Shown here piece after piece: positions 1,432-62,760 of a stretch of DNA of 64,000 nucleotides (positions within the stretch are counted from its first letter, which is position 1; every line of letters starts with the position of its first letter). A program made the translations under genes and the position numbers. Below the pieces are notes generated by a model, which was given only the letters and a program-made list of their open reading frames with translations, was not told where the DNA came from and ran no database searches. The DNA is taken from NCBI GenBank assembly GCA_028282805.1, contig JANQHD010000004.1, positions 62,001-126,000 on the forward strand, given 5' to 3'. The DNA is from Phycisphaeraceae bacterium. GTDB lineage: Bacteria > Planctomycetota > Phycisphaerae > Phycisphaerales > Zrk34.

Positions 1432-1869
1432 GTCGCGCTCATGTTACGCCAAACCCCCCACCCTGTCCGCCCAACCCTCAAGCCCCGGGGTGAGCCAAGC
1501 GAACCCCGGGGGTGCAAATCGCACCGCGCACCACCCCGTCACACGCCCGCGCGCAACCCACCACCACCTTCGATTGCGCCGCACAAACAAGGTTACACCC
1601 CCCGCCGCGAAACCCCGGCGCGCACAACGACCCAGCAGCGCGCACGCCGCCGCGCACCGCAGTGTCGCCGTGCGCGCGCCGCATCAAAACCACCCCCGCT
1701 CACAACCCAAAACCGCGACCCGCGCGCCCGTGCGCACCGCACCGTGGTGCGCAGATCACGGACGATCCGCTATTACGCGTGACCGCCCGCGGCCGCTGTA
1801 ACTTTTCGCCGGGCGTGACATCTACCTCACTGCCGCTCGACAAACACGAACGCGGAAAGGAGCCACGCC
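1432..1869. other. Divergent intergenic region holding one copy of a 198-nt repeat
   Basis: Gap between the metal permease (left) and thioredoxin (right). Long frames run through it, but they are very rich in proline, arginine and alanine and look like GC-driven artefacts. It contains repeat copy A (1583-1780). The thioredoxin promoter and ribosome site (AAAGGAG at about 1856) must lie in the last ~90 bp. Confidence 0.6.
1583..1780. repeat. 198-nt structured repeat, copy A
   Basis: Aligns without gaps to 52754-52951. Highly conserved blocks include CGACCCAGC, AGTGTCGCCGTGCGCGCGCC, CACCCCCGCTCAC and GATCCGCTATTACGCGT. Two stem-loops are perfect in both copies: CGCGCAC/GTGCGCG, and TGCGCACC/GGTGCGCA around the loop GCACCGT (GCACCGC in the other copy). 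The equal length and conserved stems suggest a structured RNA or protein-binding element. A read-through frame also exists in both copies, but the differences are not concentrated at third positions. Orientation is unknown. Confidence 0.7.
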
Positions 1870-18626: not shown

Positions 18627-18772
18627 GTTTAGCCGCGACCCGCAGGGGAGCGTGTGTGTTAGCCATAAGCCAATAGCCATCAGCCAACAGACCTGCGGTA
18701 CGTTCTGGGTGGCTCGGTGGCTGGATGGCTTGGTGGCTATCTACCGCGCTCCCCTGCGGGTCGCGGCTAAAC
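18627..18772. repeat. 146-bp compound inverted repeat
   Basis: The outer arms, 18627-18652 and 18747-18772, are a perfect 26-bp inverted match (GTTTAGCCGCGACCC... and its complement). Inside them AGCC recurs every 7 nt on the left (18662, 18669, 18676, 18683) and GGCT recurs every 8 nt on the right (from about 18711). It lies between manC and ruvX. The plus strand is followed by A-runs, not T-runs, so this is not a normal terminator for manC. Confidence 0.85.
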
Positions 18773-37187: not shown

Positions 37188-37320
37188 GGTGGGATATTAG
37201 CAGATATGGAGGGGGTCAGGGGTTGGTTGGGGTTAAGGTTGAGTTGGCGTTCACGCGTTCGCCGCTGCGCGGCGGGAACGGGCCGAAGGCCCGTCGCTAA
37301 ATGTCGCGCCGGGGTTTGGG

Positions 37321-37390
37321 GACTCGGGACTCAAGACTCAAGACTCAAGACTCAAGACTCAAGACTCAAGACTCAAGACTCAAGACTCAA
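37321..37390 (+). repeat. Heptamer tandem array (GACTCAA)x9
   Basis: One variant unit (GACTCGG) followed by nine exact GACTCAA units. Seven-nt period, identical unit, 70 bp. The same heptamer reappears as about three units at 52566-52582. Confidence 0.95.
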
Positions 37391-37430
37391 ACCCCCCGGC
37401 CTTCGGCTGCGCCTCAGGCCGGGGCTTGGG
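37391..37430 (-). repeat. AAGCCGG-type GC hairpin
   Basis: On the minus strand it reads CCCAAGCCCCGGCCTGAGG and then CGCAGCCGAAGGCCGGGG. It follows the heptamer array directly. Confidence 0.7.
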
Positions 37431-52676: not shown

Positions 52677-52753
52677 ACCACAAGCCCGTCGCCCCCGCGC
52701 ACCAACCCGGCGTTCGCTGCGAAACCATCGCACCCCACCCCCACTCACGCACG

Positions 52754-52951
52754 ACAAACGCGGTTCACCCACTTACCGCGGCGGCGTGGTGCGCAACACG
52801 ACCCAGCGTTGCGCACCCGGTCGCGCACCGAAGTGTCGCCGTGCGCGCGCCGTGACAGAAACACCCCCGCTCACGGGCTCATAACGCCCCCCGCGTTCCG
52901 GTGCGCACCGCACCGCGGTGCGCAGAAAACGTGCGATCCGCTATTACGCGT
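52754..52951. repeat. 198-nt structured repeat, copy B
   Basis: Gapless match to 1583-1780. The stem TGCGCACC/GGTGCGCA and the stem CGCGCAC/GTGCGCG are both perfect. It lies between the sigma factor gene and a low-GC PEP-CTERM gene, a setting unlike that of copy A, which argues against carry-over with a neighbour gene. Confidence 0.7.
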
Positions 52952-53114
52952 CGTTCAAGCGCAGAATGCGGGGTTCGGGCCACATCCTATTTAGCGACGG
53001 CACTCCGTGCCGTTCATCGCCGTCCGCGGCGATACAACCCCACAAATCCGTGACAACCCACCGCCCCCGGAAGTGAAAAAGTAGAATGTTCCCTTTTGTG
53101 CCCCCCTTTATGAC

Positions 53115-60650: not shown

Positions 60651-60688
60651 TACCGCGGAGGCGCAGAGGAGCGCGGAGGGCCGCGGAG
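60651..60688 (+). repeat. Inverted repeat arm, left copy 1
   Basis: TACCGCGGAGGCGCAGAGGA and on to CCGCGGAG. Reverse complement at 61261-61298 with 37 of 38 matches. A second, less exact left arm lies at 60866-60903. Confidence 0.9.
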
Positions 60689-60803
60689 ATTATTTTGGTA
60701 TGAATAGCCGGCACCATACCTGGTGCCGGTTCAAGACCGGCGGCAAGTATGCCGCCGGCTAAGGCGTTTGCACAACCCTCCGCGGTAGATTCCGATAGGG
60801 TGC

Positions 60804-60856
60804 GTCGGCAAGATCGAACACGTGTCGGTCTTCGAGGCGAAGAAGCGGGCTGAGCG
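60804..60856 (+). pseudogene. Relic tail of a second DUF1501 gene
   Basis: Reads GKIEHVSVFEAKKRAE, matching the end of the intact DUF1501 protein (GRKFEHVPIFEAKKVG). A 1-nt deletion puts the old stop out of frame. It is followed, as in the intact gene, by a repeat arm. This is the trace of a duplicated and lost DUF1501 gene. Confidence 0.75.
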
Positions 60857-60865
60857 GCTTTGTTT

Positions 60866-60903
60866 ACCGCAGAGGCGCAAAGGAGCGCAGAGAGACACGG
60901 AGA
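60866..60903 (+). repeat. Inverted repeat arm, left copy 2
   Basis: TACCGCAGAGGCGCAAAGGA and on to ACACGGAG, a diverged copy of 60651-60688, beginning 10 nt after the DUF1501 relic. Confidence 0.8.
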
Positions 60904-60949
60904 TTATTTAGATGTAGCCCCGGCCGGCGGTCGGGGTTATTTTGATGAC

Positions 60950-61255
60950 ATGAGAAACCATCTTCTGATTCTGTTCGCGGCGACGCTGTTGATCGGTCTG
61001 CCCGGTTGTGCGCGGGTGGTGCATGTGGTCGACCCGGCCGGGGCACCGATCGAAGGGGCCGAGGTGGTGGGTGTGTCGCTGTCGACGAACACCGCCCCGG
61101 TGCTGACGGACGCCAAGGGCCGGGGCCGCCTGCCGGACAACGCCCAGGGCGTTAAATGGATCGCCGTCACCAAGCCGGGTTACGTGGGGGTACAGTCCGA
61201 CGCGCCCAAGCGCTGGCCCGCGACCATCACGCTCACCCCCGCACCAACCCCCTAA
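60950..61255 (+). CDS. Small lipoprotein with carboxypeptidase-regulatory-like domain
   Basis: 101 residues. LLIGLPGC is a lipobox. The rest resembles a carboxypeptidase-regulatory-like (Ig-fold) domain: VHVVDPAGAPIEGAEVVGVS and TDAKGRGRLPDN, with WIAVTKPGYVG at the end. Probably an outer or inner membrane-bound carbohydrate- or protein-binding module. It is enclosed by inverted repeats (60866 and 61261), the same arrangement as the gene at 15913. Confidence 0.65.
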   Translation: MRNHLLILFAATLLIGLPGCARVVHVVDPAGAPIEGAEVVGVSLSTNTAPVLTDAKGRGRLPDNAQGVKWIAVTKPGYVGVQSDAPKRWPATITLTPAPTP

Positions 61256-61260
61256 AAAAC

Positions 61261-61298
61261 CTCCGCGGCCCTCCGCGCTCCTTTGCGCCTCCGCGGTA
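61261..61298 (-). repeat. Inverted repeat arm, right copy
   Basis: Reverse complement of 60651-60688 with a single mismatch. It sits between the small lipoprotein and the isomerase gene. Confidence 0.9.
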
Positions 61299-62321: not shown

Positions 62322-62351
62322 AAAGCCCACCCATAGCCATGGGTGGGCTTT
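62322..62351. terminator. Near-perfect 30-bp palindrome after the isomerase
   Basis: AAAGCCCACCCATAGCCATG and the mirrored end with one mismatch; preceded by an extra half copy at 62311-62321. The same hairpin recurs at 62731-62760. Confidence 0.75.
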
Positions 62352-62730: not shown

Positions 62731-62760
62731 AAAGCCCACCCATGGCCATGGGTGGGCTTT
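62731..62760. terminator. Perfect 30-bp palindrome
   Basis: AAAGCCCACCCATGG followed by its exact mirror CCATGGGTGGGCTTT, then TT. A strong terminator, serving both the small membrane gene and the DUF4159 gene. Confidence 0.85.

Follow-up and report, generated by a model that had tools for sequence, protein, structure and literature searches.

Most described bacterial intergenic repeats are short palindromes or families of fairly similar copies. REP/REPIN and BIME sequences are extragenic repeats that form lineage-specific families (PMC3116915, PMC3733652). REPs in particular are tagged hairpins of 20-40 bp. MITEs such as Correia elements are discrete, non-autonomous units that lack coding capacity. 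Pneumococcal BOX and RUP are small intergenic elements with slow turnover and no transposase of their own, BOX being modular; BOX, RUP, and IS elements are enriched in convergent gaps, which has been interpreted as evidence of parasitic mobility (PMC3049150). Tandem boxB modules make the length of BOX variable.

The 64,000-nt stretch of Phycisphaeraceae DNA analysed here (the window) carries two copies of an intergenic element of about 257 bp that shares features with each of these groups. Its similarity to REP/REPIN and BIME sequences lies in being an extragenic, lineage-specific repeat, but it is far longer than a REP, directional, and devoid of a tagged hairpin. Its similarity to MITEs lies in being a discrete non-autonomous unit without coding capacity; unlike Correia-type elements, its full-length form has no terminal inverted repeats, no target duplication was seen, and there are no recent, near-identical full-length copies. 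The layout and placement are BOX-like (modular, intergenic, and enriched in convergent gaps), but both length and internal spacing are fixed here, with spacers that are near random. With confidence somewhat above even, the element is read as a resident non-autonomous intergenic repeat that acts as DNA, a multi-site platform for a putative protein, with past spread in trans and slow turnover.

Copies and extent of the repeat

The preliminary description of this DNA reported a 198-nt element present twice, at 1583-1780 and 52754-52951, with no indels between the copies. These two stretches do align end to end without gaps at equal length. No direct repeat pair in the window is longer than the one they form (217 nt, 74% identity, ungapped), and a genome search with copy 1 recovers the second stretch at 80% identity over 164 nt (E 1e-37). 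The element is real, but its true unit reaches about 58 bp beyond the described left boundary and opens with a box CCGCGCAC (1524 and 52695), and the two window copies, both on the plus strand, span 1524-1781 and 52695-52953. The 17-nt end block GATCCGCTATTACGCGT is present in both copies as described (1764-1780 and 52935-52951).

The count of two was too low. Copy 1 gave about 29 matches in the whole genome (3.9 Mb in 56 contigs), and a sequence-only profile made from 26 aligned copies (R1) finds 26 full-length copies, together with one truncated copy, one divergent copy, and three short variants. With a further mini-form, the family comprises about 30 units. R1 matches the window copies at 1525-1781 (161 bits; the left box was read from the sequence) and 52696-52953 (164 bits). 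The right-end motif CCGCTATTACGCG has 28 exact occurrences in the genome; the reversed control pattern has none. Pairwise identity among copies is 51-75%, the closest full-length pair reaching 75% and none being near-identical. Both internal-deletion and short variants occur within the family; the latter carry right ends in inverted orientation, separated by about 118 bp (C47:238164-238282 and on contigs C30, C42, and C31), and the example on C47 is a mini-form with two inverted right ends. Contigs C30 and C42 (G000:C30:1-140 and C42:1-140; L169 and L170) open with an identical 99 bp, a short variant with an inverted right end inside; this common start is likely a collapsed repeat, perhaps from a larger mobile element absent from the assembly.

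The most similar copies (L001, L002, and L004) have 58-68% of spacer letters in common, well above background, while the sequences on either side of them resemble one another no more than unrelated DNA does; the unit therefore moved by itself, in agreement with the earlier statement that it travels alone. The earlier view of it, as a separate non-coding unit that is dispersed and could be the target of a regulator or a non-autonomous element, is judged to be right.

Internal architecture and genomic placement

On the top strand, the order of motifs is the left box CCGCGCAC, a dyad-symmetric motif CCnCCYYGnTTnC...AAnCnnGG, four GYGCGCRC boxes, a second dyad-like motif CCnCCCCCGCTCAC...AAACGCC, two more boxes, and a terminal TCCGCTATTACGCGTTG site. 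In copy 1 the left box lies at 1524-1531; it is kept in 24 of the 26 copies, and conservation drops to background within about 5 bp outside it. The first dyad (1565-1592) and the second motif, CCnCCCnCG...AAnCGCC (1690-1718), were recognized in the alignment, the former with weak covariation. The directional boxes occupy 1620-1753 and correspond to invariant GCGC columns; GCGC starts at 1620, 1640, 1652, 1672, 1732, and 1749, giving start-to-start distances of 20, 12, 20, 60, and 17 bp. The right end, GATCCGCTATTACGCGT, is at 1764-1780.

Conservation is confined to blocks. About 113 conserved columns of the 26-copy alignment average 84% identity, whereas 53 spacer columns show 37% against 34% expected from composition, which is near saturation (in these statistics related copies are handled as independent). 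Copy length is nonetheless nearly constant: 20 of the 26 copies measure 259-261 bp (260 in 13 and 259 or 261 in seven), one measures 258 bp, and two that lack the left end measure 254 bp. Single-base indels are present among the copies, and three indels are large, at about one helical turn: +10 bp in L019, +10 bp in L020 (perhaps the same event), and an 11-bp gap plus one base in L018. Spacers that are near random in sequence yet constant in length, except for changes of about one helical turn, suggest a fixed-geometry protein-DNA complex. Such a complex, to which the retention of both box sequence and box spacing also points, would be situated at dozens of gene ends.

Each copy is read as a directional site array: GYGCGCRC boxes (about seven), a pair of CCCCGATT/AATCGGGG-type dyads, and the terminal TCCGCTATTACGCGTTG site. 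These sites are held at fixed distances, so a function at the DNA level, with the element serving as a landing platform for a putative sequence-specific protein, is most likely. Between the sister copies L001, L002, and L004, the blocks differ less than the spacers (p 0.001-0.008, with columns classified from other copies only), and most other close pairs behave in this way too, though not L025/L059. This pattern supports constraint on the blocks after dispersal, but it could also arise if selection acted on the active source copies and not on every resident copy.

Gene contexts were assigned with a simple home-made codon-based gene caller, for which right-hand gene calls are incomplete. Among 19 copies, ten lie in convergent, eight in co-directional, and one in divergent gaps; the convergent fraction exceeds that of the gaps in the window, 22% by number (p 0.003) and 32% by length (p 0.05). 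The distance from a left end to the stop codon of the gene reading towards it has a median of 36 bp and stays within 12 bp in nine cases; from a right end to the next stop the median is 245 bp (Mann-Whitney p 0.004). One further copy begins 6 bp past a tRNA-Ala gene. Inspection of the genes upstream of the copies reveals no evident common theme. In 22 of 26 copies the left neighbor reads towards the element, an excess for which the convergent gaps largely account, the co-directional copies being divided only 5:3 by orientation.

The right end and readings as RNA or protein

Apart from the elements themselves and the short variants, the 23S rRNA gene is the sole site in the genome with an exact CCGCTATTACGCG. 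Read on the bottom strand, the right end (CAACGCGTAATAGCGGAC) matches host 23S rRNA without mismatch over as many as 18 nt (15 nt for copy 1), within what we take to be helix 44 in the L11/GTPase-centre region. When the 26 copies were scored without gaps against 1.9 kb of the host 23S rRNA, they reached 14-18, and 260 dinucleotide shuffles reached at most 14. As the copies are not independent, the match counts as one observation, with a chance probability near 1e-4 as judged from match length. Of the L11-binding domain of bacterial 23S rRNA, the element matches the 3' portion alone, and the rest of the element has no long match to rRNA. This 23S-like terminus was probably derived from the rRNA gene or mimics it, less probably resembles it by coincidence, and may be a clue to the origin of the element.

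The top-strand end is antisense to 23S helix 44, and this brings up the alternative that the element is a structured RNA in 3' untranslated regions, or a small RNA that could, for example, pair with 23S rRNA through its right end. The position of left ends near stop codons of genes reading towards the element is consistent with such an RNA, as is a top strand that is C-rich and G-poor in the manner of rho-utilization sites, but the split of only 5:3 in co-directional gaps speaks against it. Folding also argues against it. The folding energies are no better than those of shuffles (z -0.9 and -0.5), and consensus folding of both strands with RNAalifold shows almost no covariation; by pair counting, the best dyad has weak covariation with one third of cells unpaired. 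An Rfam search gave no match, and no promoter-like site was found at either window copy. Altogether an RNA function is improbable.

These results bear directly on the earlier proposals of selection on base pairing and of a small RNA, neither of which is upheld. The proposal of pairing drew on two stems described as perfect; both are present in both window copies, but the second is broken in about one third of the family, where another arrangement (GTGCGCACGGCGCACCGGCGTG) takes its place. A strand preference for wobble pairs, at first read as support for a bottom-strand RNA, is due to box orientation, because all GCGCAC boxes point the same way. A protein-coding reading was likewise rejected: none of the frames stays open throughout the 26 copies, which also contain single-base indels.

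Mobility and related families

The platform reading assumes that the element was spread in trans by a putative recombinase or transposase; it is weakened by a search that found neither a mobilizing enzyme nor an autonomous copy, by the lack of a visible target-site duplication, and by the absence of terminal inverted repeats from the full-length form. It may have been kept because the bound protein serves the chromosome, as in BIMEs, or it may persist as a slow parasite in the manner of BOX. The main rival reading goes further in the second direction and holds that the element is a purely parasitic MITE-type repeat without host function, moved in trans by a transposon, with blocks that reflect only what the transposase needed in active source copies. 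The enrichment in convergent gaps, interpreted in pneumococcal BOX and RUP as a mark of parasitic mobility (PMC3049150), fits this reading, and so do the short variants, in which inverted right ends are spaced by about 118 bp, and the common start of contigs C30 and C42, which could be explained by an upstream multi-copy element that was collapsed and left out of the assembly. The full-length copies fit it less well: their left and right ends differ, inverted ends being found only in short variants; and no target-site duplication was seen by eye in the flanks, nor was any empty site resolved to the base. Moreover, the best full-length pair is only 75% identical, the spacers are near saturation, and the blocks have been conserved since the sister copies split. 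A purely parasitic repeat is regarded as rather unlikely, although it is the chief competitor of the platform reading.

RAYT (Y1) transposases, which would move the element as a REPIN-like unit, were also considered as mobilizers and judged weak candidates. The genome has five RAYT-domain matches, four of them over the cut-off, and RAYTs occur in six of eight family relatives; one RAYT gene of this genome is a neighbor of L005, its end being about 71 bp away from that copy's right end, and a similar arrangement is found once in a relative (G005). However, this is the only RAYT gene of the genome that adjoins an element, its locus also contains a TTTAGCG-tagged hairpin, and two other inspected RAYT genes are flanked by TTTAGCG-tagged REP hairpins instead. 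RAYTs are present as well in relatives without a detected family. The element is at least six times the length of a REP, and the 26-copy alignment contains no 20-40-bp palindrome with a GTAG or CGTC tag. Mobilization by a RAYT is accordingly very improbable.

True REP-like hairpins are present separately in this genome. Those with the TTTAGCG tag (e.g., GTTTAGCGACGGCCCGCAGGGCCGG) flank RAYT (Y1_Tnp) genes at L201 (G000:C37) and L214 (G000:C48), and similar hairpins occur in the window at 18627-18772 and 52988-53032 and next to several of the element copies. Directly to the right of three copies (L009, L016, and L026) there is a recurring palindrome, about 32 bp long, that resembles TTATTCTAAAGTTCTCAAGAACATTAGAATAA.

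No copy of the family was detected in 40-60 relatives, and one genome of the same genus (85% complete) has none by BLAST, exact patterns, or R1. Weak R1 matches within the same bacterial family led to two separate repeat families of similar layout and different sequence; weak matches exist outside these two genomes as well. In G007 (one contig, 5.7 Mb) there are about 30-40 copies of a unit of about 390 bp, mostly 68-81% alike, and in G005 there are 29 matches to a unit of about 300 bp. Both units contain GCGCAC boxes, that of G007 also has a CCCCGATT-type dyad, and the units inspected are mostly situated behind stop codons or terminator-like hairpins. At the G007 loci L137-L166, a terminator-like hairpin ACGCCGACGCTGAGG...CGAAGCGTCTGGT stands directly upstream of most elements and also occurs alone; a similar hairpin is found in G005.

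Related genera therefore carry differing versions of such box arrays. A tentative extension, considered unlikely at present, is that these are host-maintained chromosomal nucleoprotein sites of a new class in one bacterial family (probably planctomycete, as PEP-CTERM anchors and sulfatases among the genes suggest), in which genera would rewrite tens of 250-400-bp box arrays after stop codons in co-evolution with one DNA-binding protein, and in which the terminal site of the present element would have been recruited from, or would imitate, the L11/GTPase-centre segment of 23S rRNA. The identity of the putative protein would directly test whether the repeats serve chromosome organization or are slow parasites.

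Downstream of lspA, and likewise after a cyclase-like gene, this genome and G007 each have their own element. This suggested ancient shared positions, but G005 has no element at a position that seems syntenic with G007, and in another relative (G001) a different gene directly follows lspA, so the elements may have been inserted independently. Searches of plasmids and phages gave no match. A virus origin was also set aside, the one IMG/VR pattern match having no profile match and the IMG/VR end-pattern scans being empty, and a single GTDB match (Phyllobacteriaceae, L117) has no profile match either.

The window holds other repeats in addition to the two element copies. A near-perfect palindrome AAAGCCCACCCATGGCCATGGGTGGGCTTT occurs twice, 379 bp apart (62322-62351 and 62731-62760), a 48-bp repeat TACCGCGGAGGCGCAGAGGAGCGCGGAGG... 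has three direct or inverted copies within 650 bp (60651-61298), and GACTCAA units form a short tandem array at 37307-37397.
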